This document shows, one piece after another, positions 4,506 through 19,649 of a DNA stretch of 35,602 bases. The position numbers were made by a program, and so were the translations under genes. The notes beneath the pieces are model-generated. The model searched no databases and was not told the DNA's origin. It worked only from the letters and a program-made list of their open reading frames with translations. Every line of letters starts with the position of its first letter. The first letter of the stretch is position 1. The stretch is from a virus. The DNA is taken from the IMG/VR virus record IMGVR_UViG_3300036832_000890, positions 1-35,602 of that record; one strand, given 5' to 3'.

Positions 4506-5990
4506 CTAGCCGTCCGTCAGGGTCGTGGTGCCGAGCTGCGCCACCTGCGGGGAGGCTCCGGCGGCGAGCGGAATGTCGGCCGTGCCGCCATTGACCTGCA
4601 AGCCGTTGACCTTGTGCACGCCGGTGATGAAGAAGCACGCCTGCACGTGCTCGTAGACGATGGTGTCGCCGGGCTGGAGCCCGGACAGGTAGGCGGCCAG
4701 CGCAGTGGTGATCGCCTGGCGGGTGGCGATCGTGTTGCCGGTGCCGTCGAGCGAGTAGCCGGACTCGGCCACGACCGTGGCTGTGATCGCGACGACCAGG
4801 ATCCGCGACGTGACGACGGTGACGCTCGCCCCGATCGGAGCTTGTCCGTGACCCAGGCCCGCCACCGGGTCAAGGAACTGCTGCAACGCCGTCACGACGG
4901 TGCTTGCGACCGGCGTCCCGTCCGAGTTCATCGCCACCACCAGCACAGTGCCCGGGCCGTTCCAGACCGGGACGACGGCTACGCGCGACACGCCCTGCGC
5001 CGCCGACCAGCGGCGGTAGTCGGTGATGTTGCCGCCGCCCGAGGTGCCTACGAACTCCCCGAGGATCCGCAGCCGAAAGTCGTTGTCGGATTCCTCCTCC
5101 TGACCACCGCTCATCGGGTCGAGGTTCGTAACCGAGATCACCGTCGGCAACACCGTGTCCAGCGACGTGATCGCATTGGGAGCGACGTTGCCTGCGGTGC
5201 CCGGCGTCAGCGCGGTGGCCGCGAGCGTGATCCCCGACGTGGTGTTCGTCGTCGGCTCGGGCGACGCCGGGTCCGGCGTGACGCTGCCGCTGTCGGTCCA
5301 GGTCGGGCTGGTCGTCTGGCCGAGAAGTAGACCCGGCGTGTTCGGGGTCTGCGTGACGTACACCCGATAGGCGGTCGCGTTCGGATTCGCGGTCCAGGTG
5401 ATCGTGTTGCGGCCGGTCGTTCCGGTGGTGACCCCCGCCTGGTCGACGTTGCCGGTCGTCTCGCCGAACGCGTTGAGCGCGGTGACGTGGTAGTAGCGGG
5501 TGCCTGCCGTCAGCGAACCACCCGTGTTGCTGGCCGCGACCGACACGCCCGCGGGCACCGTCAGCGGAGAGTTCGTGGTGCCGCCCTCGGTCGTCTGATA
5601 GCTCTGCACCTCGCCGGTCACGGGCGTGACCGCCGACGCCTGCGTCCCGGCGGCGATCAGCGTTGCTTGGGATGCGAGGAACGTCAGAAACCCGGTGGCC
5701 GAGACCGCTGGATTGCGCGTCAGCCCGAACGTGGTGCCGTGCTCGTCCAGGTAGTCGCCCCACGCGGTGCTCGGGAACGCGGCCGCGATCGTTTCGGTCA
5801 GCGCGTCCCACAGCCGAGCGCACTCCATCGCCGACGGCTGCGTCAGGTCCCAGTAGAACGTGCCTTCGCGCGTATCCACCCAGTCGGGGTCGTCGTCGGT
5901 CAGCCCGGCATGGGTGTCCTGGTCCATGCGCGCCCGCACGCGCGCGAGCGTCTCGGAGAAGATCTCGGTGAGGTCGGTGACGTCGGTCAT
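4506..5990 (-). CDS. Baseplate J-like wedge protein with an inserted Ig/FN3-like domain
   Basis: The 494-residue product is a Mu gp47/PBSX XkdT-type baseplate J protein. Residues 1-100 show the helical N-terminus and the family pattern GDYLDEHGTTFGLTRNPAV. Residues 250-330 carry the core motif with the acidic turn (MSGGQEEESDNDFRLRIL then GEFVGTSGGGNITDYRRWS). Residues 335-494 are the alternating beta/alpha C-terminus. Between about 142 and 247 lies an extra beta-sandwich-like segment (TRYYHVTALNAFGETT ... TITWTANPNATAYRVYVT) that reads like a fibronectin III/Ig domain and interrupts the usual domain. It overlaps the upstream gene in an ATGA and probably forms the wedge that expands during sheath contraction. 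Confidence 0.9.
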   Translation of the reverse strand: MTDVTDLTEIFSETLARVRARMDQDTHAGLTDDDPDWVDTREGTFYWDLTQPSAMECARLWDALTETIAAAFPSTAWGDYLDEHGTTFGLTRNPAVSATGFLTFLASQATLIAAGTQASAVTPVTGEVQSYQTTEGGTTNSPLTVPAGVSVAASNTGGSLTAGTRYYHVTALNAFGETTGNVDQAGVTTGTTGRNTITWTANPNATAYRVYVTQTPNTPGLLLGQTTSPTWTDSGSVTPDPASPEPTTNTTSGITLAATALTPGTAGNVAPNAITSLDTVLPTVISVTNLDPMSGGQEEESDNDFRLRILGEFVGTSGGGNITDYRRWSAAQGVSRVAVVPVWNGPGTVLVVAMNSDGTPVASTVVTALQQFLDPVAGLGHGQAPIGASVTVVTSRILVVAITATVVAESGYSLDGTGNTIATRQAITTALAAYLSGLQPGDTIVYEHVQACFFITGVHKVNGLQVNGGTADIPLAAGASPQVAQLGTTTLTDG

Positions 5991-6520
5991 GGTGTGAGCG
6001 GGATGTTCGAGAACTCCAGGGGCTGGGCTTCTAGCGGCGGCGCGTAGTCCACGATCACTGTGAAGGATGCGTAGAGCACTTCGTCAAATGGATCCTGGGA
6101 GAAGTCGAAGCCCTCGACGGACACGATCCGGTCGTGGACCATCAGCGCATCGACCAGCCCGTCTTCGTAGTCGGAGAGCATTTCCTCGTCGAGCTGCTCG
6201 CCGATGTGCTCGCCGATGCCGCCTTCGACGCCGTACTCGTCGGAGTAGATCATGTGCGTGTACCGCGCCGTCCGCGCGGTCTTCTCGATCCAGACGATCA
6301 GGCTGTCCAACTCGTAGGTTTCCTGCGGCGCGGAGCCATCCTTGACGAACTGTCCGGCGATGAAGTCAAACCGCCAGCTTTTGCCGAACGGGATGGGCGT
6401 GTCGGTTTCGAGGTCCTCGACCGGCGCGAGCGTCGCGTCGAGCGCGAGGTCGGGATTGATCAGCCCGGGATCGGGCGGGATCAGGTCGTAGTCGAGCGAG
6501 TCGGGTTCGATGATGCTCAT
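5987..6520 (-). CDS. Baseplate protein of the DUF2634/XkdS type (gp25-like)
   Basis: The start chosen is the ATG at 6520, giving 177 residues (MSIIEPDSLDYDL...) and an ATGA overlap with the gene before it; the longer open frame upstream lacks a ribosome binding site. The N-terminus is acidic and Pro-rich. The middle has GKSWRFDFIAGQFV and then a long region with KTARTARYTHMIYSDEYG and LSDYEDGLVDAL, matching the DUF2634 pattern (E/K-rich, Y-x-x-Y, then an acidic helix). It lies directly upstream of baseplate J, as xkdS does upstream of xkdT. The family is thought to cap the sheath-baseplate junction. The assignment rests on pattern and order, not on a search. Confidence 0.75.
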   Translation of the reverse strand: MSIIEPDSLDYDLIPPDPGLINPDLALDATLAPVEDLETDTPIPFGKSWRFDFIAGQFVKDGSAPQETYELDSLIVWIEKTARTARYTHMIYSDEYGVEGGIGEHIGEQLDEEMLSDYEDGLVDALMVHDRIVSVEGFDFSQDPFDEVLYASFTVIVDYAPPLEAQPLEFSNIPLTP

Positions 6521-7923
6521 GTGTGTCCGATCATGTAGCCGAAGAACTGGGCGCCCCCCGGGGCGTACAGGCTGACCGTGGCTAGACCACCCCAAGTCGC
6601 CCACGCCTCGAAATAGTCAGTCGTGCCGTTTGCCAGCACCACGCCGGTAGCGCTCGCGCCAGCGCCTGTCGCCACGATCGCTGGACCACCACCCGCACTA
6701 GTGCCTGCGATGACGGGGCCCCCGGCCCCGTTCTTTAGGACGCCCACCTGAAAATATCCGGTGTTCGCCGGGAGTGCCTCATTGATGAAAACGACCGTCG
6801 AGAGGAAGTAGTAGCCCGCCACTTTCGGCGTGAACCGACCCTTATGAGTTGCCAGGTCGATCCACGTGGGGTCCGCTGCGGTGAACAGCGCCGTGTCGAG
6901 AGCGACGATCGTTCCGGCAGGAGTGCTCATCGTCTGCCCGGCAGTGTTGTAAATCCCGAACGCCCCTCTGGCCTTGGCGCTGACCACGGTCGGGTTGGGA
7001 TAGGTGCCCGATAGGTCACCGCCAGCAGCTCCCGAGGGCGAACCGCCAGCGGGGATCGTGATCACCGTGCGGTTGTTGGCTGCATCGTCAGCCGCGCTGA
7101 CGCCCGCCCCGGTGAAGTTGAGCGCCGCGCGCTGAGTCAACGTGGTGCCCTCGTCCTGCACCGTGTTGATCGGTCCGGCAGGACCGGGCGGGCCGGTAGC
7201 GATCCCGTTCGCCACGGTGATGCCCTTCACCTTGACGATGTATGCCAGCACGCAGTAGGGCGGCATGTTGTTATGCGCCCCGTCGCTACCGGCACCACTG
7301 GTCGCACCCGTACCACCCGCTCCGGTAGCCGACATTGCGTACATCTGGTTGGGGAAGCTGGCGCTCGGAGCGCCAATCCCGAGCGGCTGCCCCGCGACAC
7401 CGGTGGCACCGATGAAGTTGACCGCATTCCCGGATGGTCCGTGGGTATGCGACGGCCCGGTGTGGGTATGCGACGGCATCTCGCTGGCAACTAGCTGGTG
7501 CGTGCTTTCACCACCCTTAGTGCCCCACGCGGCCGACGTCGAGCTGCTCAGCAAGAACCGATCGCGCAGATCCGGGACCGTGAACGTCTTGGCGGTAGTG
7601 TTCGCCGCCCACAGCGGGTTGCTTGCTCCGACCTCAGCCACGGCGAAGTCATAGCCCTGCGGATACACGGCCTGCGTATATGTCGCCCCGTCGGCGAGCA
7701 CGTAGCCGAACGGCAGCGTCTTGCTCGTGAACGTCGCGACGGTGCCGATCGGGTTGCCGTCGTAGCTCGTGCCTGCTGATCCACTGCCCGAAGTGACCCA
7801 CGCGGTCCCGTTCCAATAAAACAGCGTGTTGGATCCGGTGTCGTAGTACATCTCGCCGAGAACGGGCGAGGCCGGGGCCGCGGGGAGGCATGGGCTGCGA
7901 AGTCGGCCGATGGTGTCCGGCAT
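6517..7923 (-). CDS. Tail fibre: N-terminal adaptor module, tail collar domain, C1q-like jelly-roll head
   Basis: This 468-residue protein is modular. Residues 1-45 are the adaptor shared with neighbouring fibres (GEMYYDTGSNTLFYWNGT). Residues 55-125 are a tail collar domain (LPFGYVLADGATY then FTVPDLRDRFLL). Residues 140-162 are His-rich (SHTHTGPSHTH). The collar part ends around 218-232 with NNMPPYCVLAYIVKV. A short collagen-like GPPGPAG follows at about 244, then GGDLSGTYPNPTV (301-313), a linker common in fibres. Residues 318-466 look like a C1q/TNF-type jelly-roll (VAGYYFLSTVVFI, ANGTTDYFEAWATW). It probably projects from the baseplate and binds a host receptor. It is the last gene of the adhesin block and overlaps the following baseplate gene by four bases. 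Confidence 0.82.
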   Translation of the reverse strand: MPDTIGRLRSPCLPAAPASPVLGEMYYDTGSNTLFYWNGTAWVTSGSGSAGTSYDGNPIGTVATFTSKTLPFGYVLADGATYTQAVYPQGYDFAVAEVGASNPLWAANTTAKTFTVPDLRDRFLLSSSTSAAWGTKGGESTHQLVASEMPSHTHTGPSHTHGPSGNAVNFIGATGVAGQPLGIGAPSASFPNQMYAMSATGAGGTGATSGAGSDGAHNNMPPYCVLAYIVKVKGITVANGIATGPPGPAGPINTVQDEGTTLTQRAALNFTGAGVSAADDAANNRTVITIPAGGSPSGAAGGDLSGTYPNPTVVSAKARGAFGIYNTAGQTMSTPAGTIVALDTALFTAADPTWIDLATHKGRFTPKVAGYYFLSTVVFINEALPANTGYFQVGVLKNGAGGPVIAGTSAGGGPAIVATGAGASATGVVLANGTTDYFEAWATWGGLATVSLYAPGGAQFFGYMIGHT

Positions 7924-7926
7924 GGC

Positions 7927-8298
7927 TCAGGTTCCCGAGGTCGAGTCGAGCTGTCCGACGACTAGCCGGATCAGCAGATTTGCTTGGCGAGTCAGCGACT
8001 GGACTTGGGCGAGCACCTGCGCATTGGTCGGCGACTGCAACGCCTGGAAGTTCGCGTTGGCATTCAGCGCGCTCCTAGCCTTCTGCGTCAGCGCTCGCTG
8101 GTTGGATTCGACGACCGGCTCGGAGAACGTCGTCCCGTCGTAGGTCCAGCCGACCTGTGGCCGCGGATCCACGTCGGTGATGTCGATCCACTCAAGCTCG
8201 GGGCGGGCCGGGTTCGGGTGGGTGGCCACGGGGTCGTTGTAGGTGACGAGCCGCACCACCGTGTCGTTCGTGGTGTCAACGATCGCGTAATCGGTCAT
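7927..8298 (-). CDS. Small tail-fibre-associated protein
   Basis: ATG at 8298 gives 123 residues and overlaps the preceding gene by four bases (ATGA). The N-terminal half contains PQVGWTYDGTTFSEP, a motif seen in short proteins located next to phage tail fibres (DUF4376-like/fibre assembly contexts). The C-terminal half is an Ala/Gln/Leu-rich helix (NAQVLAQVQSLTRQANLLIRL) that could form a coiled coil. A role in fibre assembly or attachment is inferred from motif and position between fibre genes. No enzyme motif is seen. Confidence 0.62.
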   Translation of the reverse strand: MTDYAIVDTTNDTVVRLVTYNDPVATHPNPARPELEWIDITDVDPRPQVGWTYDGTTFSEPVVESNQRALTQKARSALNANANFQALQSPTNAQVLAQVQSLTRQANLLIRLVVGQLDSTSGT

Positions 8299-8552
8299 AG
8301 CGCGACCGCCGCCGTGAGATCCACGGGCACGGGCGGGACGGTGGTTGCGAGGGCTTCGTGCACGTAGACCTTGTGCGCCGGGATCGTCCCTCCTCCGGCG
8401 GCGGATTCGTGCTCGGCGACCATCCAGCCGGTCGGCCCGCACACGCAACTCGGATTCAGCTCGTGCTCGGGCTCGCCGTCCGCGGTCCACCAGCAGTGCA
8501 CGTCCTCGCCGGTCAACGACACGGTCCAGTAGGCGCTAGGCGATTCGCTCAT
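8295..8552 (-). CDS. Small hypothetical protein in the fibre block
   Basis: ATG at 8552 gives 85 residues; the stop of the upstream paralogue overlaps this start as TAATG, supporting coupled translation. It has WTVSLTGEDVHCWWTADGEPE and then CVCGPTGWMVAEHES, ending in a hydrophobic stretch. The CxC pair and an upstream Cys suggest a small disulphide or metal-stabilised beta domain. No family recognised; its position suggests a virion or fibre accessory component. Confidence 0.6.
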   Translation of the reverse strand: MSESPSAYWTVSLTGEDVHCWWTADGEPEHELNPSCVCGPTGWMVAEHESAAGGGTIPAHKVYVHEALATTVPPVPVDLTAAVAL

Positions 8553-8995
8553 TACTCGTGCTCCCAACAGACTGACGCGCCGCCGTCGCTGGTATCGAAC
8601 ACGACCTGGGCGCTGGCGTTTACATACAAACCCGTGAGGATGCTGTGCGCCCCCGGGGCCAGAACGGCCGTCCACCACTCAAACGAGCACCGCACATGAG
8701 CGACGTTGACCGGAACGAAGAAGCTTCCCCAGCCCGTGTTGATGCCCCCACCGTCGACCCAGTAGGCGTTCGTGACGCCGCTGAAGAAGTTCGCAGAGCC
8801 GTACATGCTGTAGGTGGTGGAGCCGTAGACGGACGCCCCATCCGGGTTTTTGATCGTGATGTTGTGCCCGAATAGCTGCACCCCCGAGCCCGCGCCGAAC
8901 GTGCCCGCCCAGGTTCCACCGGCGTACGCGTTGCTCCCGCTGAAGCCCAGGTTGCGTTCGCACATCTTCTGACCGTCGAGCAGGATCGAGGGCAT
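8552..8995 (-). CDS. Member 3 of three tandem paralogues of an unrecognised beta-rich family
   Basis: ATG at 8995 gives 147 residues. It shares a pattern with the next two upstream genes: an MCER/MCEH motif near residues 11-14, W-x-G-T-F-G at about 30-35, TIKNPDGA (about 47-54), FEWW at about 105, and a C-terminus with the order GxYV...DxxDGGxxxxWE. The pattern suggests a compact beta-sandwich of the jelly-roll type, with the Cys near the N-terminus conserved in all three. Position within the fibre block suggests a virion receptor-binding head or tip, but no homologue is recognised and the role is inferred. Confidence 0.7.
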   Translation of the reverse strand: MPSILLDGQKMCERNLGFSGSNAYAGGTWAGTFGAGSGVQLFGHNITIKNPDGASVYGSTTYSMYGSANFFSGVTNAYWVDGGGINTGWGSFFVPVNVAHVRCSFEWWTAVLAPGAHSILTGLYVNASAQVVFDTSDGGASVCWEHE

Positions 8996-9435
8996 CAGGG
9001 CCACTCCCTCACGATGAACGTCCCGCCATCGTTGCCGTCGAACGTCACGGTGCCCGCTACCACGTAGACGCCGCAGTTGACCGTGTGCACGCCCGCCGCG
9101 ATCTTGCCCAGGCTGGTCCACCAGTCAAAGCTCACCGGCCAGTGCTCGTTGGTGAGGTTGAAGTACTGCCTGCCGAACAGCATCTGCCCGCCGCCGTCGA
9201 TCGTCACGCTGCCCTGGATGATGGTCCCGGCGGTGGGGGTGTAGCAGGTGAGGTCCATTGAGCCGCCGAGGTTGGCCCCGTTGCCGTTGACCACGGTGAC
9301 CGACATGTCGCCCGACAGTTGCACCCGTGCCCCCGCGCCGTAGCTGCCGCCCCACCCGCCCCAGGTGTTGGCGTAGCCCACCGCCAGGTCGTGCTCGCAC
9401 ATCTGCGTGGTTCCGACTTGGATCGGACTGGTCAC
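8995..9435 (-). CDS. Member 2 of three tandem paralogues of an unrecognised beta-rich family
   Basis: A GTG at 9435 is the start: it forms a GTGA overlap with the previous gene's stop and places the MCEH motif at residues 12-15, as in its sister genes. The product is 146 residues, with GGWGGSYGAG, a T-x-x-N-G-N-G-A segment, FDWW at about residue 105, GVHTVNCGVYVVAG and GNDGG near the end. It resembles members 1 and 3 in order and spacing, though only about a quarter to a third of residues appear shared by eye. No signal peptide or membrane segment. Function unknown; a fibre tip or decoration is inferred. Confidence 0.7.
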   Translation of the reverse strand: MTSPIQVGTTQMCEHDLAVGYANTWGGWGGSYGAGARVQLSGDMSVTVVNGNGANLGGSMDLTCYTPTAGTIIQGSVTIDGGGQMLFGRQYFNLTNEHWPVSFDWWTSLGKIAAGVHTVNCGVYVVAGTVTFDGNDGGTFIVREWP

Positions 9436-9857
9436 GCGACCTCCCAGACCAACGAGTTGCCTCCGTCGGCCGAGTTGAACACCAGCGAGCCCGAGGCGAT
9501 CCAGACGCCGATGTTGACGCTGTGCTGTCCCGCTGCCAGCTTGCCCTGCCGCCAGCAAAACGAGAACTGCCAGTGGCGCGCCTGGCTGTAGCAGAACAGT
9601 CCCCACACCACCTGGGCAGCACCGTCGATAATCGTGCTGCCCTGAATCAGCGAGCCGGTGTTGTTGGTGAGGGCCTGAAACTGCGCGCGTCCCATCAGGT
9701 AGGCCCCGTTGGGGTTCTCGATCGTGACGTTGCCGCTGAACAGCCCGACGCGGCTCACGCCAAAGGTGCCCGACCACGAACCGATGACGTTCTGTCCGTA
9801 GGCGCCCAGGCCGTGCTCGCACATCTGGGTCTTGCCGAGGAGGACCGGGCTGGCCAT
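9432..9857 (-). CDS. Member 1 of three tandem paralogues of an unrecognised beta-rich family
   Basis: ATG at 9857 gives 141 residues and overlaps the 770-residue fibre gene stop as TGATG. It begins MASPVLLGKTQMCEHGLGA, then SWSGTFG, VTIENPNGAYLMG, LAAGQHSVNIGVWIASG and SADGGNSLVWE, matching the two downstream sisters. Extra cysteines occur near the middle (FCYSQARHWQFSFCW). The first member after the long fibre, it may be the ancestor of the tandem set. Function unknown; part of the adhesin block. Confidence 0.7.
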   Translation of the reverse strand: MASPVLLGKTQMCEHGLGAYGQNVIGSWSGTFGVSRVGLFSGNVTIENPNGAYLMGRAQFQALTNNTGSLIQGSTIIDGAAQVVWGLFCYSQARHWQFSFCWRQGKLAAGQHSVNIGVWIASGSLVFNSADGGNSLVWEVA

Positions 9858-12169
9858 CAGTTCGCCTGCTGGAATCGGATGCCGGATAGCGACAGGTAGC
9901 CAACGCTCGAACGCGTTGAATAGTTCGGCACCGCTTCGGCTGTAGTCGTGTTGATCACGCCCGACGAGTTGACGTCGACGCGCATGATCTGCGTTCCCAT
10001 CGCGCTGTCGCTTGAGAAGCAGGCGAACAGCTCGTTCCCGGCGGGTCTGAACCCGGCGGGCAGCACCGCGATCGTGTCCGACGAGGTCAGCGCCGTGCTC
10101 TTGGCGATCAGGCCGCGCAGCGTCACCCAGCCAGCCGCGTCGAGCGTGTAGCCAGCAGGCGACCAGCCCGACCCATAGTCGCTCCAGCCAGCGGCAAAGA
10201 TGCCCGCCGCGGCGAACGTCACGAATGGTGGCTTGCGCAGCGACGGGTTGGGATAGTTGCCGACAAGGTCGCCGCCTGCCTGCTGGAACGTGAACGAGTT
10301 GCCGACCTGGACGACCGAGAGGTAGTTCATGGTCGGCGTGGTTGCTATCGGCAATGCTGTCGGGGCGCAGTAGTACCCCACTTCCAGATAGTCGCCTGCG
10401 TTGCACTGGATCACGTCCGCCACAACTGAGCCGATTCCCCCTGACGCGGGGGCCATCACCGTAGCCCCCTGCGCGACTAAGGTGCCGTTTTTGAGAATGC
10501 CAGCCGAGATGGATTGCCCGGATGCGGTCGCACTCACAAATACGTCACCGCTTACCTGATAAGAACCCGTAGCAGGACAGACGTAGCGACCACTCGCAAG
10601 CGACACACATCCGCCAGGATCGGAGCTAATCGTGTCCACCGGGAGCTTCGTCCAAGCGCTAGCGGTCAGGGTAAGCGCCGCATTCCGGTAGGCCCTCGCC
10701 GCCGTGACCGGCCCGACGGCTCCGGGCAGCGACGTGAGCAGCGTGACCGCGAGATAGGACCCACCTGGGCCACCGCTTAGCGCGGCGCTTGAGTAGCCGT
10801 ACAGCTCCAGGTAGTCGCCCGCGTTGCACTGGATGACATCGCTGTGTTCGATGAACTCAGCGTTGCCACCCGTTGCCCCGATAAAGACCGCCGTGCCCGT
10901 CGACACGGCGGCACCGTTCTTATAGAACGAAGTGCCAAGCTGCGTGCCCGCCGTCGGTGCCGGGAAGGAGACCCCGCCTTTTACCTCGTAATAGCCTGCC
11001 ACCGGGCAGACAATCCGGCCGTTGGCGAGCTGCACCATGCCGGATGAGTCGTAGGTCATGGCATCCAGCGGAACCTTGGTGTTCCCTGCCGCGAAGCTGA
11101 CCGCCGCGTTGCGCTGGCCTCGTGCTACGGCGGTGCCCGAGGGCGTGGCTGCCGCCTGCCCGACCATGACGACCGACAAGTAGTTGTACACCGGGGTGAG
11201 GATCGCGAGGCTCAGCGCGGCCGAGCAGTAGGCGTAAAGCTCGATGTAATCCCCCGCGTTGAGACTGAGGATGTCGGCTGCGTTGCCTCGGACATAGCCG
11301 CCAGTGTCGGCAACGTTGGTTGATGCTCCTCCCGACCTGAGCACACCGTTGACGTAGATCGCCGCCGAGAACTGGTAGTTGGTGCCAGCGGTCCCGCTGG
11401 CGATCGCCTCGCCGACCACGCTGTATGAGCCCGTCGCCGGGCAGGTATATCGCCCGCTCACTAGCGATATGCGCCCGCCAGGATCGGAGCTGATTGTGTC
11501 AAGGGGCACCTTGGCCCAGGTGGCTGCTGGCAGCGTAAAGCCCGCGCTGCGATACGCCCGCGCCGCTGTGACCGGAGCGGCGGTGCTCGCCAGCGACGAG
11601 AGCAGCGCGACAGACAAGTGGCTATTGATGCCACCTGACCCGACGTTCAGGGTGGCGGCGACAGAAACGTAAACGTACAGTTCGACGTAGTCGCCTGCGT
11701 TGAGCAGCAGGACATCGGTGGCCACGGGATTGTTCCCTGACGAGCCAGCAGGCAGGGTGGCTCGGGAGCCCCGTGTCCGCTCGCTCCCGTTTACCCAAAC
11801 CGACGCGATTACTTCAGCGCCACTCGGCGTGATATCGCCAATCTGCCCGTCGATCTTGTAGTAGCCAGCGACCGGCGGGACGATCCTCCCGTTAGCGGCC
11901 TGCGCCATCCCCGACGTATCGAAGCTAATCGTGTCAACCGGCACCTTGTTGAAGCCAGCGGAGAACGACTGGTTGCTGCCGCGATACGCTCGCGCCGCCA
12001 CTGTCGTCGGAGCGCCGCTGCTGCCTCCGCTGCCGCCGCTGACCCACGCCGTCCCGTTCCAGTAGAACAACGTGTTGGAGCCCGTGTCGTAGTACATCTC
12101 GCCCACGGCAGGCGAAGCTGGCGCCGCCGACAGGCGCGGAGGACGAAGATGGCCGAGCGTGTCAGGCAC
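9857..12169 (-). CDS. Tail fibre with four C1q/TNF-like jelly-roll repeats
   Basis: The 770-residue product starts with the shared adaptor (GEMYYDTGSNTLFYWNGT, residues 23-40). It then has four repeats of about 135 residues at 58-192, 201-337, 347-478 and 490-623. Each repeat begins with an ARAYR/RGQRN-type strand and contains K(V/L)P(V/L)D..., NGR or SGRY...CP..G.Y, a short YxNG or YKNG turn, and NAGDYxEL. These are the hallmarks of phage C1q-like domains, which form trimeric jelly-rolls. A GGDLVGNYPNPSL linker (632-645) leads to a beta-rich C-terminal domain (650-770). It probably trimerises and displays several binding domains along one fibre. Its 3' end overlaps the first paralogue gene. 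Confidence 0.85.
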   Translation of the reverse strand: MPDTLGHLRPPRLSAAPASPAVGEMYYDTGSNTLFYWNGTAWVSGGSGGSSGAPTTVAARAYRGSNQSFSAGFNKVPVDTISFDTSGMAQAANGRIVPPVAGYYKIDGQIGDITPSGAEVIASVWVNGSERTRGSRATLPAGSSGNNPVATDVLLLNAGDYVELYVYVSVAATLNVGSGGINSHLSVALLSSLASTAAPVTAARAYRSAGFTLPAATWAKVPLDTISSDPGGRISLVSGRYTCPATGSYSVVGEAIASGTAGTNYQFSAAIYVNGVLRSGGASTNVADTGGYVRGNAADILSLNAGDYIELYAYCSAALSLAILTPVYNYLSVVMVGQAAATPSGTAVARGQRNAAVSFAAGNTKVPLDAMTYDSSGMVQLANGRIVCPVAGYYEVKGGVSFPAPTAGTQLGTSFYKNGAAVSTGTAVFIGATGGNAEFIEHSDVIQCNAGDYLELYGYSSAALSGGPGGSYLAVTLLTSLPGAVGPVTAARAYRNAALTLTASAWTKLPVDTISSDPGGCVSLASGRYVCPATGSYQVSGDVFVSATASGQSISAGILKNGTLVAQGATVMAPASGGIGSVVADVIQCNAGDYLEVGYYCAPTALPIATTPTMNYLSVVQVGNSFTFQQAGGDLVGNYPNPSLRKPPFVTFAAAGIFAAGWSDYGSGWSPAGYTLDAAGWVTLRGLIAKSTALTSSDTIAVLPAGFRPAGNELFACFSSDSAMGTQIMRVDVNSSGVINTTTAEAVPNYSTRSSVGYLSLSGIRFQQAN

Positions 12170-12178
12170 CAGGCCTCC

Positions 12179-14638
12179 TCATTGCTCCCAGACCTTCCCT
12201 TGGATCCAGAGTTGACTGGGCCCGGTGTAGTACTGCCAGGTGCCGCCAGAACCACCCGAGAGGACCGCCGAGGCGGTGTAGGTGCCCGGCGCCAGGCGGA
12301 AAATCCGGGTCGCCATGCGCCCCTCGTAGGTCTGCACCGCCGAGTGCTGGGTAACCAGGTGCAGCACGGTTTGGACGCCGTCCTGGTCACCTTGGGACAG
12401 AGCGATGCCGCCGTAGAGGTAGTGGTAGTTGGCGTCGGTTTTTTGCAGCAGCCCGATTTGAGCCGTGACCTCCCAATACACCGGCACGGCAGGCGCGTAA
12501 GTAATCGACATGGGGTTGCCGCCAGCCCCGTCCAGGCAGGTCGTGTTGGCGACGCTGGGCACCGCGGCGTACCCCTCGGCGACGCCCCGCTTGATCTGCG
12601 TGCCAAGAATCACGCCCTTGCTCCTGGTGTCCGACAGCGTCCGCCAATCGCCGTTGGCGACGTTGTACTCCAGCACGATGCTCCCTACCGGTGGATAGGT
12701 GATCGACGCCGCATTGACCCCGCGCCAAATGAGCTTGCCGTTGCCATTGATCGCGACCCAGTTGTTGGGGCCGTCGAGCTGGTAGCTGTTGATGCCGACC
12801 AGCGTCCCATCGGGCGGGCTGGCCGGGAGTGTGATCGTCAGCCCTCCCGAGTTGCAGATGACGAGATCGAACGGCTGGGCGGTGTAGTTGGCCGTCGCGT
12901 TGACTGGCTTGAGGTTCGGCTGTCCCGGCGGGCCAATCGGGCCGATGGGGCCTTGCGGCCCGGGACCGGCGGTGATCAGCGTCGCGCTCAGGTAGCACTG
13001 CACGACCTGGCCAGCGGCGATGCTGAAGCCGGTGGCGGTCCAGGCCCATAGCTCAAGGGTGTCGCCCGCGTTGCAGGACACCAGCTCCGAGATCGTGAAC
13101 GTCCGATTGCCGCCGCCGCCAGCGTCGGTGCGGTAGTCGTCATTGCGGGCAACCTCGATCCCGTTCTTATAGATCGACCCGATGCAGCGGCCGGAGTAGG
13201 TCGATACGCCGAACGCCACGTTCGCGTTGACCTGGTAGTAACCAGCCGTCTTCACTTGGATGCTGCCGGAGGCAGGGTTCGCTATGCCGCTGGTGTCGAA
13301 GCTCACCGTGTCGAGCGGAATCTTCATCCAGCCGTTGACCGTGAGCGCGGCGGTGCGGAACATGCGTGCGCTGGCTCCGCTGCTGCCAGCTATAGCCGCC
13401 GTCTGCCCGACCATGACCACCGACAGGAAGTTGTTCCCGACGCTCGGCACATACAGGGCTGTGCTCGCCGTGCCTGCCCCGAACAGCTCGAAATAGTCCC
13501 CCGCGTTGGCCTGAATGACTGCCGTTGCCGTCGCGCCCGTGGTGCCGTTACCGGGCGTCTGCGTGCCTGTCGCTATGTTGGCGCCGTTTTTGTAGATGAG
13601 GCATTGGACGAAACCATTAGCGGGACAGTTGCCGTATAGCTCGCCCGTGACCAGATACGTACCCGACGCCTTGCAGACGTAGCGACCGTTAGCTAGTGAA
13701 ACGTTGCCGCCGGGGTCATAGTCGATGGCGTCAAGCGGAATCTTCCCCGTTGAGGTTGGGAGAGTAAATGCCGCGCTGCGATACGCCCGCGCTGCCGTAA
13801 CCGGGGCGGTGGTGCTCGACAGCGACGAGATCAGCGAGACGGAGAGAAACGTCTGCTGCCCGACCGTCAATGTCTCATTGGTAAATATCCACAGTTCGAG
13901 AACGTCATTCGCGTTGCATTGGAGCACATCGCCAACATGGTGGTTATTGAGGCTACCGTTTGCTGTGGTTGGGTAAAACCGCGTACCCTGTGCCGCACTT
14001 GCGCCGTTGAGATAGATGGCGACTATCGCATCCTGGCCCGCTGCCGTCGCGCTAACACCAGCACCGCCGTTGACCTGGTAGTAACCGGCCACGGGACACA
14101 CGTACCGCCCGCTGGCAAGTTGCATCCCGCCCGTGGTATCGAAACTGATCGTGTCCACGGGTATCTTGCTCCAGCCACCCGAGGCGACAGTAAGCGCCGC
14201 GTTGCGGTACGCCCGGGCCGCCATCGTCGCTGCGACCGTGCCGCCACCCTGCACGACAACCGTGTACTGGCCCGTGGTCGGGATACCGATCGTGCGCACC
14301 GTGACCGTGTTGGCGTCGGTATGCTCGACATCAGCCTCGACCTCGGCATAGGGCGAGGCCGACTGGTAGACAACGACAGCCACATTCCGTACGCCCAGGT
14401 TGTGCCTGACCACGAAGCTGTTGCTCAGGCCGTCGCCGATCGTTTGCGTGTAGACCATTCCGCCTGCGCCGCCGCCGCTGCTGCTCCCACTCCCGGTCCC
14501 GGTCGCCGGAACCCAGGTGGTCCCGTTCCACCAGTACAGCGTGTCGCTGCCGGTGTCGTAGTACATCTGGCCGCGCACCGGCGAGGCTGGCGCGGCAGCC
14601 AGACGCGGAGGTCGGAGGGTGCCGGTGATCTCAGGCAT
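12179..14638 (-). CDS. Tail fibre with three C1q-like repeats, collagen-like neck and separate C-terminal head
   Basis: ATG at 14638 gives 819 residues with a TGATG-type overlap; the longer frame upstream of this start is a shadow of the previous gene. Residues 1-45 are the adaptor (GQMYYDTGSDTLYWWNGT). Residues 62-130 are a module also found in the baseplate protein at 16511-17392 (YTQTIGDG ... HNLGVR ... [10 protein letters not shown]). C1q-like repeats lie at 139-273, 281-412 and 422-555. A short GPQGPIGPIGPPGQP collagen-like neck (about 559-573) follows. Residues 580-680 resemble a beta-rich fibre shaft segment (GGLTITLPASPPDGTLVGI). Residues 690-819 are an unrecognised head. The domain order suggests a trimeric, multi-headed adhesin. 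Confidence 0.82.
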   Translation of the reverse strand: MPEITGTLRPPRLAAAPASPVRGQMYYDTGSDTLYWWNGTTWVPATGTGSGSSSGGGAGGMVYTQTIGDGLSNSFVVRHNLGVRNVAVVVYQSASPYAEVEADVEHTDANTVTVRTIGIPTTGQYTVVVQGGGTVAATMAARAYRNAALTVASGGWSKIPVDTISFDTTGGMQLASGRYVCPVAGYYQVNGGAGVSATAAGQDAIVAIYLNGASAAQGTRFYPTTANGSLNNHHVGDVLQCNANDVLELWIFTNETLTVGQQTFLSVSLISSLSSTTAPVTAARAYRSAAFTLPTSTGKIPLDAIDYDPGGNVSLANGRYVCKASGTYLVTGELYGNCPANGFVQCLIYKNGANIATGTQTPGNGTTGATATAVIQANAGDYFELFGAGTASTALYVPSVGNNFLSVVMVGQTAAIAGSSGASARMFRTAALTVNGWMKIPLDTVSFDTSGIANPASGSIQVKTAGYYQVNANVAFGVSTYSGRCIGSIYKNGIEVARNDDYRTDAGGGGNRTFTISELVSCNAGDTLELWAWTATGFSIAAGQVVQCYLSATLITAGPGPQGPIGPIGPPGQPNLKPVNATANYTAQPFDLVICNSGGLTITLPASPPDGTLVGINSYQLDGPNNWVAINGNGKLIWRGVNAASITYPPVGSIVLEYNVANGDWRTLSDTRSKGVILGTQIKRGVAEGYAAVPSVANTTCLDGAGGNPMSITYAPAVPVYWEVTAQIGLLQKTDANYHYLYGGIALSQGDQDGVQTVLHLVTQHSAVQTYEGRMATRIFRLAPGTYTASAVLSGGSGGTWQYYTGPSQLWIQGKVWEQ

Positions 14639-16497
14639 CAGCCGACCAGCGTGACCAGCTTGGAGTTGGCTGCCACCGCGGCGGCGTAGGTGATCGTCAC
14701 GTCCCCGTTGGCAGCCACCGACACGTCGGGCAGCTCGACGTTGCCGGTCGCGTTGTCCTGGACCTGGACGTGGATCGCGCGGGTGGCATTGAGCGCGTGC
14801 GTGGCCTGCGGAATCGTGATTGTCGTCCCGGCCCCGTGCGTGGCGCTGTTGTTGTAGTAGCCCGCCGCGCCGAGGACCGTGCGAGCCCCCGGCGACGACG
14901 TGGAGCTTGTACCGCCTTTCGCGACGGGCAGGACCCCGGTGACGACCGCCTTCGCGCCGGACAGGTCCACGGCGCCAACGGCGAGCTGCGTGCCACCGAT
15001 CCCGCTCGGCTTGACCTCCAGGCTCGATCCCGCGCCCGCCGTATCGAGCGTGGTCCCGTCGGGGTTGGCCGCGAGCGTGTTCCCGGTCTTGGTGATGCCC
15101 GCACCAGCGGTAATCGAGCCCGCCCCCGAGAACTGGGTCCAGAGGATGTTGGTCGTGCCCAGCGTGCCGCCCGCGTCGGCCATACACACCCAGCCCGAGT
15201 CGCCGTTTTGGGTTCCCTGCTCGACGAACGTGAACGCCGACACGAGTTCATTCCAAGTGTCGGCGTCAGGGGCTCGCGTCCAGGCGCCCGACTGCACGAT
15301 GTAGATGCCGTTCTGCGAGGTCGTGGTCTGGTCTTTGACCAACACTCGGGTGCCCGCGATGGGGGTCTGATTGTCGATCGTCGGAAACCCGCCCGACAGC
15401 GTGATGTTGGCGGTGGTGGCGCAGTACACCGACTGCTTGGCGTCGAGCCCGGTGGCGACCGCGTCCACGTAGTTCTTGGTCGCCGCGTCCTGTGCGCTCG
15501 CCGGATCAGCCAGGCCCGAGATTGCCTGACCCGACATCGACAAAAACGTGGTCGGAGGCTGAAGCTGATCGAGCCTCGTCCCCGACCCGAGAACGGTTGC
15601 AGGAGCGCTAGCCGACCCGTTGACGACCTTGCTCGGCACCGGATTGAAGTTGATGTTGTTGGTGCCGATCGTGCCGCCCGTGATCGCGGCATCGCACATC
15701 CACAGCGACAGGTAGTTGGTGCCGAACGTCGAACCGACAGGGACCACCGCGCCGACGAGCTGAGTCCAGGTCGACGCATCCGGCGAACGAGTCCAGGCTC
15801 CGCTCTGGCAGATGTAGATGCCGTTCTGCGTCTGCGGGGTCTGGTTCTTGACCAGGACGCGATCCCCGACCGCGACCGCCTGCCCGTCGATCGTCTGCGT
15901 GCCAGACAGGGTGATACTGGCGGTGGTCGCCGCCCTGACGGGTGCCTTCCAGCTCAGATTCGTCCCCTGGCTGTCCACGTAGTTCTTGGTGGCTGCGTCC
16001 TGGGCGGCGGTGGGATCGGCCACGCTGGTGAGCTTCTGGTTGTTCATGAACAGCGAGGCTTGTGGCACGCGGACCTGGTCAAGCGACGTGTTGCCGGGCA
16101 TCGCCTGCTGTGCGCTCGGCCCGAGCGTGCGTAGCGACGGCGTGGCTGCCAGGCCGCCAACATTGGGGGAGGCCACGTCGATATCGGTAATCGTGCCGTC
16201 TGCGATCTTGGCGCTGGTGATCGCCCCGTTAGCCACCGTGGGCGCAGCGGCGGTCCCGGTCAGATCCCCGGCGAGTTGGACGACGCCCTTGACCGTGGCG
16301 GTCGCGTCCGGGGGTGCGCCGACCCCGCCCTTGGCCGACTGCCAGGTTGTACCGTCGTACCACAGCAGCGTGTTCGACGGCGTATCGAAGTACATCTGGC
16401 CCTTGACCGGCGCGGACGGCGCGGCGCTGAGATTGTGGATCGCGACGTTGCGCGCCTCCAGCTTGGCGAAGTCGAGCGCTGCTCCTAGTGTCGGCAC
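14638..16497 (-). CDS. Long tail fibre with two internal repeats (AATKNYVD type)
   Basis: The 619-residue product is first in the fibre block. Residues 20-57 carry a diverged adaptor (GQMYFDTPSNTLLWYDGTTW). Residues 60-115 are low-complexity Ala/Thr/Gly (VVQLAGDLTGTAAAPTVANG). Two repeats at 151-286 and 320-457 each start ADPxxAQDAATKNYVD, continue with a TTASITLSG or TTANITLSG strand, RVLVK(N/D)QT, QNGIYI, SGAWTR and a W-rich end. This pattern is widespread in phage and prophage long fibres and forms fibrous trimers. The C-terminal portion contains VLPVAKGGTSSTS, the usual motif just before the fibre tip. It probably links the adhesin set to the baseplate. Confidence 0.82.
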   Translation of the reverse strand: MPTLGAALDFAKLEARNVAIHNLSAAPSAPVKGQMYFDTPSNTLLWYDGTTWQSAKGGVGAPPDATATVKGVVQLAGDLTGTAAAPTVANGAITSAKIADGTITDIDVASPNVGGLAATPSLRTLGPSAQQAMPGNTSLDQVRVPQASLFMNNQKLTSVADPTAAQDAATKNYVDSQGTNLSWKAPVRAATTASITLSGTQTIDGQAVAVGDRVLVKNQTPQTQNGIYICQSGAWTRSPDASTWTQLVGAVVPVGSTFGTNYLSLWMCDAAITGGTIGTNNINFNPVPSKVVNGSASAPATVLGSGTRLDQLQPPTTFLSMSGQAISGLADPASAQDAATKNYVDAVATGLDAKQSVYCATTANITLSGGFPTIDNQTPIAGTRVLVKDQTTTSQNGIYIVQSGAWTRAPDADTWNELVSAFTFVEQGTQNGDSGWVCMADAGGTLGTTNILWTQFSGAGSITAGAGITKTGNTLAANPDGTTLDTAGAGSSLEVKPSGIGGTQLAVGAVDLSGAKAVVTGVLPVAKGGTSSTSSPGARTVLGAAGYYNNSATHGAGTTITIPQATHALNATRAIHVQVQDNATGNVELPDVSVAANGDVTITYAAAVAANSKLVTLVG

Positions 16498-16510
16498 CGG
16501 TTATCTCCCA

Positions 16511-17392
16511 TCAGTTCATGTACGCCTTGCCGCTAGTGGCCGCCCCGAAGTTGACCGTCAACGAGTTCGTATCGACGTAGTGCACATCGGCCAGCAGGAC
16601 CGAGTTCCCGGAGTCCACGACCGTGACCGAGGGGTACTTGCCGAGGTTGTGCGTGACGGACCAGGACGTCGCCGCCGTGGCTTGGGTGAACACGTACGAG
16701 AGGTCGCCGCCGGTTGCGCCCGGGCCCGACGCGATCACGGTGTACGCGCCCGAGGTCGGGATCGTGCGAGTGCGGACGGTCACCGTGTTGACGTCGGTGT
16801 GCTCGACGTCGGCTTCGACCTCGTCATAGGGAGCGGTCGAGCGGAACACCGTAACCTGCACGCCGCGCACCCCGAGGTTGTGCGTGACCGTGAACGCCTG
16901 GCTAGAGCCGTCGCCGATCGTCTGCGTGTACGCCTTGCCGCCCGCCGGGCCAGCGGGCCCTTGGGCACCGGGCGCTCCGGCAGGTCCCGGCGACCCCGCC
17001 GCGCCCGCCGTGCCTGCCGCTCCGGCAGGTCCTGGCGGGCCAGCGCTGCCCGGCACACCGGACGCGCCTGGCGGGCCTGGCGGACCAGGCTTGCCGCCGC
17101 CGAGCGCGGGCACGTCCTGATCGGAGACCACCTGGACGGCCACCCAAGCATCGCCGATCTCCTCAAGCTGCACCAGATCATCGACGTGCAGGCCAACCGA
17201 CTGGCGGTAGCTGATCAGCGTCTGCGACAGCGAGAAGTCGTCGTCCTCGAACAGGTTGTGGTCGTAGTCGTGAACGTCGAGCGTCAGCGGGCTGGTGTCG
17301 ACCACCGTCGCCCAGTGCGACCCCTTGTGCAGCTCGACCATCCGTTTGCCGTGCCGGTGCAGCGCGTCACGCAGCGCGAGCTTTCCGCTCAT
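16511..17392 (-). CDS. Baseplate protein (DUF2577/XkdR-like) fused to collagen-like repeat and fibre modules
   Basis: The 293-residue product has three parts. Residues 1-98 are an OB-like beta domain ([40 protein letters not shown]), matching the place and approximate size of XkdR-type DUF2577 proteins. Residues 101-152 are Gly-X-Y repeats ([13 protein letters not shown] and onward) expected to form a collagen trimer. Residues 155-225 are the [16 protein letters not shown] module shared with the 819-residue fibre. Residues 233-293 ([18 protein letters not shown] ... [11 protein letters not shown] ... SGKAYMN) are a common fibre C-terminal unit. It overlaps the upstream gene in an ATGA. The fusion implies a baseplate subunit that itself extends outward; the DUF2577 part is tentative. 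Confidence 0.7.
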
Positions 17393-17736
17393 GACACCAT
17401 CCCCACGGTCGCGGTGATCGGCTCGACGGCGAGCAGCGAGAGCGCCAAGTACGAGCGGCGAGTGATCCCGAGGTCGGTGCCGAGCCCGTCCTGTGAGCCG
17501 ATTACGTACACCCGCACGGTGTTGTGGCCGTAGTCGACTTCGACCACGTCGCCGACCACGTTGGCCAGCCTCATCGTCGGGTCCACGATCCCGAAGCTTC
17601 CGCGCTCGTCTGACACGCTGGCCCCGTACCAGCTCACGGTGAAGAAACCCAGGGGCGTGGAGATTCCCGCGAACGCGGCTTGGGCGTCGAGGAACGCTTG
17701 GCGTCCGGCGATCACCATCGGCTCAGGTCCGAGCAT
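17389..17736 (-). CDS. Small tail/baseplate protein between hub and XkdR-like gene
   Basis: 115 residues, start ATG at 17736 overlapping the hub stop as TAATG. The middle shows TVSWYGASVSDERGSFGIVDPTMRLANVVG then VVEVDYGHNTVRVYVIG, a beta-rich fold with an OB-like feel. The C-terminus RRSYLALSLLAVEPITATV is strand-rich. No family recognised with confidence. Position between hub and baseplate genes suggests a spike-adaptor or baseplate component. Confidence 0.6.
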   Translation of the reverse strand: MLGPEPMVIAGRQAFLDAQAAFAGISTPLGFFTVSWYGASVSDERGSFGIVDPTMRLANVVGDVVEVDYGHNTVRVYVIGSQDGLGTDLGITRRSYLALSLLAVEPITATVGMVS

Positions 17737-19649
17737 TACGCCAGCCTTACCTGCACGTCGTCGTTGGGCGACCAGCCGAGCGCGTTCTTGAGTTCGGTGT
17801 GCAGGTCGATCGCGTAGTGCGGCTGGCCAAGCTGGCCCGAGCCGATGTCGCGCTTGGTCGCGGTGACGGTCTTGCCCTTGTACTGGACCTCCAGCTTGGT
17901 GCCCGGCGATAGCGGCCCGCCTTGGCCGAGCGCCTTGCCGAGCAGGCCGCCGTAGTGGGCATTCGCGCCCGCCTGGCCCAGCTCCGCGTAGTAGGTGCCA
18001 CCGTCGGTCAGCGACCCGTACGCGCCCTGCGCGTCGCTGAACCAGGTCGCGCCCACGGTCGTCCAGCCGGTGTCGCTGGCCTTGCCCTTTTTGCCGCCGC
18101 TCTTGAAGTCGCGGATCGTCTTGTCGACCTGGGCGCGCACCTCTTGGGGATCGAGCACGTCGATGAAGCCGGTCGTCAGATCCATCGTGTAGCTCCCCGC
18201 CGCCACCGAATGCACGGCCGAGGTCACGAACGCGATGCCCTGGTTAGCGATCGGCGTAAACGCAGGTTGGTTGGCGCCGGGCTTGGCCTCATCAGCGCCG
18301 CTGCCCCCGGCTTGCGATGCGGCCTGGCCCGCAAGCTCCGGGTCGGGCTGGCCGAACATCGTCGGGTCAAGATCCTCGGCCTCCTTCAGCGCGGCCACAT
18401 ACGCCTTGGACCGGTGCTTCGTCCCCGGCGTCGCCAGCGACGTGAGCGCCACGTTGCCGTAGCCCTCCTCGGGCAGGTTGATGTGGATCGCGTCGCCGCG
18501 GCGGATGGTGGCGATCCCTGGATGGTTCAGCTCGGCGGTGCGGATCGGCGTCAGGCGCTGCGCAAGCGCGCGCTTGGCGATGATCTGCAGCTCAAGCTCA
18601 GAGGACACGGTGCCGAAGTCGACCGTCTTGCGGATAAACCCGAACCGCTTGATCGCGGCCTTGCTCTGCGTGACCGTCGTGACCTTGTGCGCCTTGCCCT
18701 TCTTGCCCTTGGCTTTGATCGTTCCGCGCGCCTCGATCACGGTCGCGAAGCCCGGGTCCTGGCTGCGGGTCAGCGTGGCGTCGAGAAGCTGCTCGCGGAA
18801 CTGGTACAGCACGCGGTTGCGGCGCATCGGGATGACTTCCAGCGCCCCCAGCAGATGCTTCTTGTCCGGCGCGCCCCAGCGGATGATGAACGTGCGGCCG
18901 GTCCGCTTGGTCTCCTCCTGGTAGGCGGCGGTGATCACATGAATCGGGGAGGTCAGTCGCGTGGCCGACGCTGACAGCGAGAAGTAGGCGGTGCCCTGCG
19001 ACAGCGTGCGGACCGGCACCCGGTAGCGCTGGCACACGTCATGGGCGATCTGGTCGCAGCGCCAGCCGTTCTTGCGCACCTTCTTGCCCGCGGTGTACTT
19101 GAAGTCGGCGACGGTCTGCGCGAGCGTCCAGAGGTCGTCGGTGAGGTTCATCGCCCAGGAGCCGTCCGCCAGCGTCACCGTCTCGGCCGTCCCCGAGTCA
19201 TAGCCCGGGCTCACTCGCATCGCCCACAGGTTGGTGTACTTGTTGCCGTAGCCGACCTGGCAGATGATCACGATCCCGAGCGCGCCGAAGCTCGACCGTT
19301 CCTCCTTGCCCCACCTAACGATCCGGGCGGTCACTGACTCGCCCGGGTACAGCAACGGCGCTAGCCGGTTGTACTGGCGTAGCGGCGGCTTGTGCATCGT
19401 GATCGAGCCGGTCATCGCCGCCTGCGTGTTGATGTTCGCCAGGTCGTCAGAGGACTCGTCCTGCCAGGAGAGGTTGTCCACCATTCCGGAGATGTCGACC
19501 GTCTTGCCCTGACCGCGCGCGAGCACCCGGATTCGCGTCTTCCACAGGTCCGGCACGGTGATCTTGTGCTCCAGGTGGCTGGTGACCATCTTCTCGAAGC
19601 GGATCTCCTCGTGGCGCTGCTTGGCAGTGATCTTCGTCGTGTCGGCCAT
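17736..19649 (-). CDS. Tail hub protein (XkdQ-like) with a C-terminal double-psi beta-barrel domain
   Basis: ATG at 19649 gives 637 residues. Residues 1-500 show the hub pattern: ITVPDLWKTRIRVLARGQGK near the start, LSWQDESSDDLANINTQAAM, a GESVTARIVRWG strand and a later NHPGIATIRRGDAIHI segment, typical of XkdQ/gpD-like hub proteins. Residues 527-637 form a different domain (TGWTTVGATWF ... GLLGKAL ... GTKLEVQYKGKTVTATKRDIG ... HYAIDLHTELKNALGW), matching the RlpA/3D-type double-psi beta-barrel fold with acidic residues at about 601 and 615. Such domains cleave or bind glycan strands. A catalytic role in local peptidoglycan penetration is inferred. It overlaps the LysM-like gene as TGATG. 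Confidence 0.82.
   Translation of the reverse strand: MADTTKITAKQRHEEIRFEKMVTSHLEHKITVPDLWKTRIRVLARGQGKTVDISGMVDNLSWQDESSDDLANINTQAAMTGSITMHKPPLRQYNRLAPLLYPGESVTARIVRWGKEERSSFGALGIVIICQVGYGNKYTNLWAMRVSPGYDSGTAETVTLADGSWAMNLTDDLWTLAQTVADFKYTAGKKVRKNGWRCDQIAHDVCQRYRVPVRTLSQGTAYFSLSASATRLTSPIHVITAAYQEETKRTGRTFIIRWGAPDKKHLLGALEVIPMRRNRVLYQFREQLLDATLTRSQDPGFATVIEARGTIKAKGKKGKAHKVTTVTQSKAAIKRFGFIRKTVDFGTVSSELELQIIAKRALAQRLTPIRTAELNHPGIATIRRGDAIHINLPEEGYGNVALTSLATPGTKHRSKAYVAALKEAEDLDPTMFGQPDPELAGQAASQAGGSGADEAKPGANQPAFTPIANQGIAFVTSAVHSVAAGSYTMDLTTGFIDVLDPQEVRAQVDKTIRDFKSGGKKGKASDTGWTTVGATWFSDAQGAYGSLTDGGTYYAELGQAGANAHYGGLLGKALGQGGPLSPGTKLEVQYKGKTVTATKRDIGSGQLGQPHYAIDLHTELKNALGWSPNDDVQVRLA

Follow-up and report, generated by a model that had tools for sequence, protein, structure and literature searches.

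Contractile-tail modules of the PBSX type, among them those of phage phiCD508 and the diffocins, encode in series a hub, a spike-position protein, a sheath initiator, a baseplate J protein and a wedge protein, with a fiber gene after the wedge gene. Ten references were compared here: six annotated phages (Lietuvens, BalMu-1, phiCD27, vB_BboS-125, MismyG and CHVD 5762) and four prophage regions of Firmicute type. In all ten the XkdR-position gene encodes fewer than ~155 amino acids (aa) and abuts or overlaps the sheath-initiator gene xkdS with a gap of ≤12 nucleotides (nt), and fiber genes, where annotated, follow the wedge gene. The window analyzed here, which is the whole 35,602-base IMG/VR virus record IMGVR_UViG_3300036832_000890, has the same series, whereas in its group the XkdR-like gene carries an extension up to ~1,480 aa, and as many as nine additional genes come after it. 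A first-pass annotation of this sequence had stated that xkdR and xkdS are neighbors in PBSX-like phages, which is confirmed in 10 of 10 references, and had proposed that a receptor-binding cassette was inserted between them in this phage. We consider it probable instead that the whole group has a hypervariable locus for host recognition, extending from roughly residue 95 of the XkdR-like protein as far as the XkdS start, that its products are mounted on the tail tip, and that its variety arises by recombination of blocks.

The XkdR-XkdS interval in the window and its relatives

The window is taken to be a fragment, probably of a larger genome, because several near relatives are contigs of 107-125 kb. 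Its structural genes are all minus-strand genes, and those for the major capsid protein (PF25209), the sheath, the tape measure and the baseplate can be recognized; the group consists of uncultured, head-bearing phages with contractile tails. Nine minus-strand open reading frames (ORFs), numbered i1 to i9 in the order of transcription, fill positions 6517-16497 exactly between the XkdR-like gene (16511-17392) and XkdS, as originally described. The features of the locus are listed below, with scores in powers of ten given as E values here and throughout.

17108-17392, minus strand: conserved N-terminal domain of the XkdR-like protein, a probable central-spike domain with an oligonucleotide/oligosaccharide-binding (OB) fold.
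16511-17107, minus strand: variable C-terminal part of the XkdR-like protein, a collagen-like stalk (PF01391, 3.3e-7) with two small tip domains.
14638-16497, minus strand: i1, a 619-aa fiber protein with a docking-like N-terminus, DUF5907, two internal repeats and the C-terminal tip module T3.
12179-14638, minus strand: i2, an 819-aa fiber protein with a docking module, a small domain in common with the XkdR tail, three C1q repeats and tip module T1.
9857-12169, minus strand: i3, a 770-aa fiber protein with a docking module, four C1q repeats and tip module T2.
9432-9857, minus strand: i4, first of three tandem paralogues of an orphan jelly-roll-like family.
8995-9435, minus strand: i5, second of the three paralogues, with a jelly-roll-like model.
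8552-8995, minus strand: i6, third of the three paralogues.
8295-8552, minus strand: i7, an 85-aa protein whose gene comes directly after the trio i4-i6 in all three contigs having the trio.
7927-8298, minus strand: i8, a small protein that follows the fiber genes in most relatives, a possible fiber assembly factor.
6517-7923, minus strand: i9, a 468-aa collar-type fiber protein with a docking module.
5987-6520, minus strand: XkdS-like sheath initiator (Sheath_initiator PF10934, 9e-18, above cut-off; 73-81% identical in relatives), the conserved downstream boundary.

The listed ORF of i2 begins at an upstream GTG (12179-15187); overlap and homology place its start at the ATG at 14638. The DUF5907 match of i1 scores 47.3 bits against a cut-off of 27, and the Pfam matches of i2 to C1q (34.7 bits) and of i3 to BclA_C (49.2 bits) exceed the curated cut-offs of 23.7 and 38, respectively. 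The Collar match of i9 is slightly below cut-off, and its matches to tail-fiber families of PHROGs are strong. The products of i7 and i8 are short and not evidently adhesins. The cassette ORFs are not chance ORFs, because their in-frame GC content at third codon positions (GC3) is 0.78-0.93 and the ratio of nonsynonymous to synonymous substitution rates (dN/dS) is 0.11-0.28 for members of the i4-i7 families compared between two other contigs (V1166 and G007, below); by this measure the genes of these families evolve under constraint. Long antisense ORFs opposite the cassette (14770-16134 and 15986-17533, plus strand) are expected from the high GC content and were not treated as genes.

Relatives were gathered by profile scans with XkdS, a conserved 115-aa protein, XkdT and the tube protein, and XkdR and XkdS were then located. 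A search of genome contigs returned only distant Firmicute-type prophage regions, and WhiB, a marker of actinobacterial hosts, was looked for and was absent. Eight intervals of the group, including that of the window, are complete; their lengths from XkdR start to XkdS start, their contents, and the share of the window's cassette residues that is matched in each are as follows.

Window: 10.87 kb; the XkdR-like gene and i1-i9.
V855 (3300036832_000855): 11.43 kb; a short XkdR, an i1 orthologue, fibers of 1,057 and 1,754 aa, an i8-PKD gene and a 119-aa gene; 73% matched.
G001 (3300021560_000013): 9.98 kb; an XkdR with C1q, an i1 orthologue, a 2,144-aa fiber, i8 and a 100-aa gene; 68% matched.
V555 (IMGVR_UViG_3300036846_000555): 10.64 kb; a 1,573-aa XkdR fusion, then genes for an i8-like protein, a protein of 110 aa, a C1q protein of 1,501 aa and an i8-PKD protein; 61% matched.
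G004 (3300036828_000142): ~10.74 kb; a 1,159-aa XkdR fusion, two C1q proteins, an i8-TIG gene, a collar protein and two small genes; 52% matched.
V1166 (3300036832_001166): 2.84 kb; a 235-aa XkdR fusion and homologues of i4-i8 in the order of the window; 22% matched.
G002 (3300036832_000582): 2.57 kb; a 235-aa XkdR fusion and one 621-aa fiber; 9% matched.
V250 (3300045283_000250): 2.64 kb; a lone XkdR fusion of 873 aa that includes collagen, beta-helix-like and carbohydrate-binding-like regions, and XkdS 13 nt away; 0% matched.

Further records of the comparison are V784 (3300036785_000784), G005 (3300036791_000138) and G007 (3300036803_000077). Adhesin-type sequence occupies the XkdR-XkdS site in all eight complete intervals, and insertion in this particular phage is therefore not borne out. 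The gene sets of the eight are all different, yet XkdS and XkdT are 61-81% identical; the nine genes of the window are not an old set conserved in its relatives, each of which has a different set, and those cassette residues that do match are 37-63% identical between the window and relatives. In V250 the XkdR-like gene and XkdS are adjacent although this phage belongs to the window's group.

The variable region begins inside the XkdR-like gene. The protein is conserved only over approximately its first 95 residues, and the upstream boundary of the island, originally placed at 16497, accordingly moves to about 17107. Beyond residue ~95 the protein continues as collagen and an AYMN tip in the window and V855, as C1q, collagen and an AYMN tip in G001, as T2 in V1166, as collagen and T3 in G002, and as long arms of several domains that terminate in T1 in V555, G004 and G005. 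The same parts are found in separate chains. Residues 256-1113 of the V555 XkdR align with residues 50-889 of the separate V855 fiber f1057 (45% over 889 aligned positions), and each of the tip modules T1, T2 and T3, which end i2, i3 and i1, respectively, terminates XkdR fusions as well as separate fibers. A 48-aa module is found at N-termini only, in 11 separate fiber proteins of five phages, where it is 46-73% identical to that of i2. The natural reading is that the same adhesins can be attached to the tail tip in two ways, by fusion to the XkdR-like domain or through the docking module.

With corrected starts, each junction from XkdQ through XkdU measures -4 to +13 nt; the cassette and the baseplate genes thus form one overlapping series, presumably coupled in translation. 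Internal promoters or terminators above shuffled expectation were not found in the cassette, using a consensus that may not fit the host. Most likely, the cassette products are all made together, and each virion would carry several receptor-binding proteins at its tail tip. Of these, one would sit on the axis of the spike or tip as a fusion with the XkdR domain, in many cases via a collagen stalk, and the others would be separate chains attached through the 48-aa N-terminal docking module. Replacement of adhesins would proceed by recombination of whole blocks rather than by recent in-place duplication or programmed switching. The earlier suggestion that one virion carries several receptor-binding proteins fits with co-translation.

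The protein i8, judging by gene position alone, may help in fiber assembly; it has no Pfam or NCBIfam match, and so no known tail-fiber chaperone family was matched. The i8-like proteins of relatives have exchangeable C-terminal PKD or TIG domains (L002:9304-9996 in V555, L006:8913-9635 in V855, L009:12584-13171 in V1166 and L059:11242-11898 in G004), and the i8 of the window stops after the common part.

Several points weigh against a locus devoted to host recognition as described here. The sequences analyzed here were themselves the source of the docking and repeat models, and short motifs resembling the docking module occur elsewhere, even at a C-terminus (9d83_D, E 0.002). Neither i7 nor i8 has a Pfam match, and homology assigns no function to either of them. 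The tree of C1q repeats considered below is poorly resolved, with one starred branch.

Baseplate flanks and the XkdR-like domain

The genes of the baseplate series on either side of the locus are as follows.

17736-19811, minus strand: XkdQ-like hub gene (PF24032 YQBQ, 2.6e-9), which may start later than the listed GTG; the protein is 59-74% identical in relatives.
17389-17736, minus strand: conserved 115-aa baseplate-region gene with no database match; 56-84% identical in relatives.
4506-5990, minus strand: XkdT-like baseplate J protein (Baseplate_J PF04865, 1.5e-47).
3948-4502, minus strand: XkdU-like wedge protein (Phage_Mu_Gp48 PF10076, 3e-11).
2759-3916, minus strand: conventional terminal fiber gene (Collar PF07484, 1.9e-17; 49-65% in five relatives).

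Retention of the conventional fiber gene after XkdU, as noted in the first-pass annotation, is upheld, and the gene is conserved in relatives as well. The C-terminal part of XkdQ (17736-18275, minus strand) resembles by eye an RlpA-type double-psi barrel, which Pfam did not confirm; a wall-degrading role is possible, as in the diffocin hub-hydrolase. The XkdT-like protein has an inserted stretch at approximately residues 140-250 that appears fibronectin-III-like by eye, and its G001 copy, at 704 aa, is larger still. The XkdU-like protein is about twice as long in V555 (L002:12214-13332), V1166, V855, G001 and G004 as in the window; the insert in V555 is a carbohydrate-binding-like domain (CBM_4_9, 2.3e-7), which the XkdU of the window lacks. 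The plus-strand gene at 2037-2762, convergent to the terminal fiber gene, has a signal-peptide-like start and a collagen-like stretch (PF01391, 1.9e-8), and its product is a candidate secreted collagen-like protein. A phage tail lysozyme domain (PF18013, 3.3e-20) lies within the tape measure protein (20497-25656, minus strand; 1,719 aa). The 115-aa gene was considered as the true XkdR and ruled out by profile comparison with XkdR (E 0.09-0.2).

Of the two assignments that define the interval, that of XkdS stands by its PF10934 match, and that of XkdR is moderately supported. In an 11-member alignment the N-terminal domain of the XkdR-like protein is 40-79% identical to that of the window, and DUF2577 is the top family for two of the 11 members (E 0.0074). 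Comparison of the group's N-terminal domain with Firmicute XkdR by hhalign gives E values of 8.7e-5 and 7.3e-5 for two alignments that span different portions of this domain. The Firmicute XkdR profile matches PDB chain 9g8s_r at 6.4e-11, and no PDB chain was matched by the group's own XkdR-like profile. Chain 9g8s_r, the PDB title of which reads just "phage protein", is presumed to correspond to gp63, the phiCD508 needle-tip protein (PMC11948020). The diffocin spike CD1369 consists of an N-terminal helix and an OB fold and forms a C3 trimer below the hub (PMC11329794). A central-spike role for the XkdR-like domain is likely but unproven.

Alternatively, the XkdR-like domain might be a wedge-side or hub-side anchor rather than the central spike, the adhesins then being ordinary peripheral tail fibers encoded at the same variable locus; we regard this as unlikely, though it deserves serious attention. 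The results that count against a spike are that a single-protein Pfam scan of the window's XkdR-like protein finds collagen only and no XkdR family, that the hhalign probability is ~60%, that the AlphaFold2 model of the N-terminal domain is poor, with a predicted local distance difference test score (pLDDT) of 52.7, and that an extra conserved 115-aa gene lies between XkdQ and the XkdR-like gene. XkdR is matched, however, by the XkdR-like domain and not by the 115-aa gene, the XkdR-like gene is placed between hub and sheath initiator, and the helix followed by strands in the predicted structure parallels the helix and OB architecture of CD1369 (PMC11329794). Given a spike, we suggest tentatively that this membrane-puncturing part may double as an exchangeable receptor-binding fiber stalk, its OB domain continuing in frame, often via a collagen triple helix, into modules of collar, C1q, beta-helix or carbohydrate-binding type. 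The same adhesins could in that case alternate between being part of the spike and being docked separately, and recognition would take place on the contraction axis.

The i4-i7 block, duplication and switching

The G007 contig (7.6 kb, GC 56%), on which XkdS was not found, encodes a fiber with collagen, collar, C1q and T2 parts, followed by the trio, i7, i8 and a GH25 endolysin. Its i4-i7 block is 74-88% identical to that of V1166, and the two trios are 82-88% identical, with 78% DNA identity over 1.8 kb. GC3 in G007 is 0.72-0.80 for the trio and 0.47-0.54 for the neighboring genes, and synonymous divergence between G007 and V1166 is 0.48-0.79 for the trio, 1.87 for i7 and saturated for i8. 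The trio bears the signature of a recent exchange tract, because its GC3 stands out and synonymous divergence rises outside it. No significant Pfam or PHROGs match was found for i4-i6, and i5 has no match in 50,697 phage records; single-pair searches found relatives of i4-i6 in V1166 and G007 only, and a mixed alignment had no conserved stretches. The AlphaFold2 model of i5 is all-beta with a jelly-roll-like fold (pLDDT 78.9; predicted TM-score, pTM, 0.74). Its Foldseek matches are weak, with TMq ~0.45 for C1q/TNF and TMq up to 0.65 for viral proteins, among them C1q-domain and minor tail proteins.

These features might indicate that i4-i8 are separate mobile cargo, such as virion decoration, fiber chaperones or anti-competitor functions, for which the locus serves as an insertion site. 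The genes i4-i7 do travel as a block and have no adhesin homology by sequence, and i8 has PKD or TIG domains in relatives. The jelly-roll-like model of i5, nearest to viral C1q-domain and minor tail proteins, and the position of the block directly after a T2-ending gene in three of three contigs argue otherwise, and we judge the cargo explanation improbable compared with membership of the host-recognition locus.

Recent insertion of the cassette in this phage and its growth by tandem duplication, as first proposed, would agree with the tandem paralogues i4-i6, the internal repeats of i1, the seven C1q repeats and the adjacency of xkdR and xkdS in reference phages. Every relative, however, has adhesins at the site, the repeats are not clustered by phage, and the window shares the trio with i7-i8 with V1166 and G007, which also keep the order i4-i5-i6. 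C1q repeats number 7 in the cassette of the window, 9 in V555, 11 in V855, 11 in G001 and 9 in G004, with none in V1166, V250 and G002. In a tree of 46 repeats, phage labels require 28 changes, compared to a mean of 28.3 for shuffled labels. The best match lies in the same phage for 11 of the 46, where 8.6 are expected at random, and six of the seven window repeats are best matched in another phage, repeats 1 and 2 of i3 matching repeats 1 and 2 of V555 in order. The cross-phage pairs i5/m2 and i6/m3 are 45-50% identical, as against 35-43% for paralogue pairs, with i4 ambiguous. Judged by these comparisons, duplication belongs to the past of the locus and did not recently build the island, and recent insertion with duplication is very improbable.

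Switching among a pool of alternative adhesins, driven by a diversity-generating retroelement or by DNA inversion, is still harder to credit. It might be suggested by the number of adhesins that look like alternatives and have an N-terminal module in common, but reverse transcriptase PF00078 is absent from the window (a 35.6-kb fragment) and six relatives, serine recombinase PF00239 is absent from seven records, inverted repeats longer than 14-17 bp were not found and inverted matches are just 15-17 bp, and all of the genes share one orientation, their junctions overlapping or close to zero.

Significance and comparison with known systems

In one group of uncultured contractile phages the locus provides a fixed address where the host-recognition repertoire would be kept and renewed, and it may be one way in which such viruses change target. 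It offers natural examples of compatible parts, namely the N-terminal docking module, collagen linkers and interchangeable tip modules, together with an orphan adhesin-like family, i4-i6, encountered here in three contigs only (window, V1166 and G007). If the XkdR-like domain is the spike, the division between recognizing fibers and a puncturing spike is challenged, and the clearing or use of an axial receptor-binding fiber during contraction becomes testable. A report of adhesins alternating between fusion to an XkdR-like domain and separate chains was not found in searches of an open-access library, which does not prove that none exists.

The Alteromonas phages A5, V22 and P24 (PMC10579305) similarly have a block of adhesion genes and a small accessory gene in common although they otherwise differ; here, in contrast, the block lies inside the baseplate operon, its parts are also fused to the XkdR-like domain, and the chaperone role of i8 is putative. 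In cryoconite phages (PMC7468147) C1q-domain receptor-binding genes are likewise a variable spot in an otherwise conserved genome, but there a single gene switches variants, whereas here gene number, C1q count (0 to 11) and attachment mode vary. The eBAP fibers of extracellular contractile injection systems (eCIS; PMC12923769) carry a ~50-aa N-terminal anchor on otherwise unrelated fibers, including C1q fibers, with several per operon in some systems; the present group consists of head-bearing phages, and the eBAP anchor and the 48-aa module are likened by their shortness and N-terminal position. The branched multi-tailspike complex of Ackermannviridae (PMC11414711) also places several receptor-binding proteins on each virion, gained by gene exchange; gene position and domain make-up differ from those found here. 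Exchange of host-recognition modules, C1q receptor-binding islands, multi-fiber systems with ~50-aa anchors and multi-spike virions are thus already established. The locus described here differs from them in its address between the spike-position and sheath-initiator genes, in the scale of its turnover and in the alternation of its adhesins between fused and separate forms.

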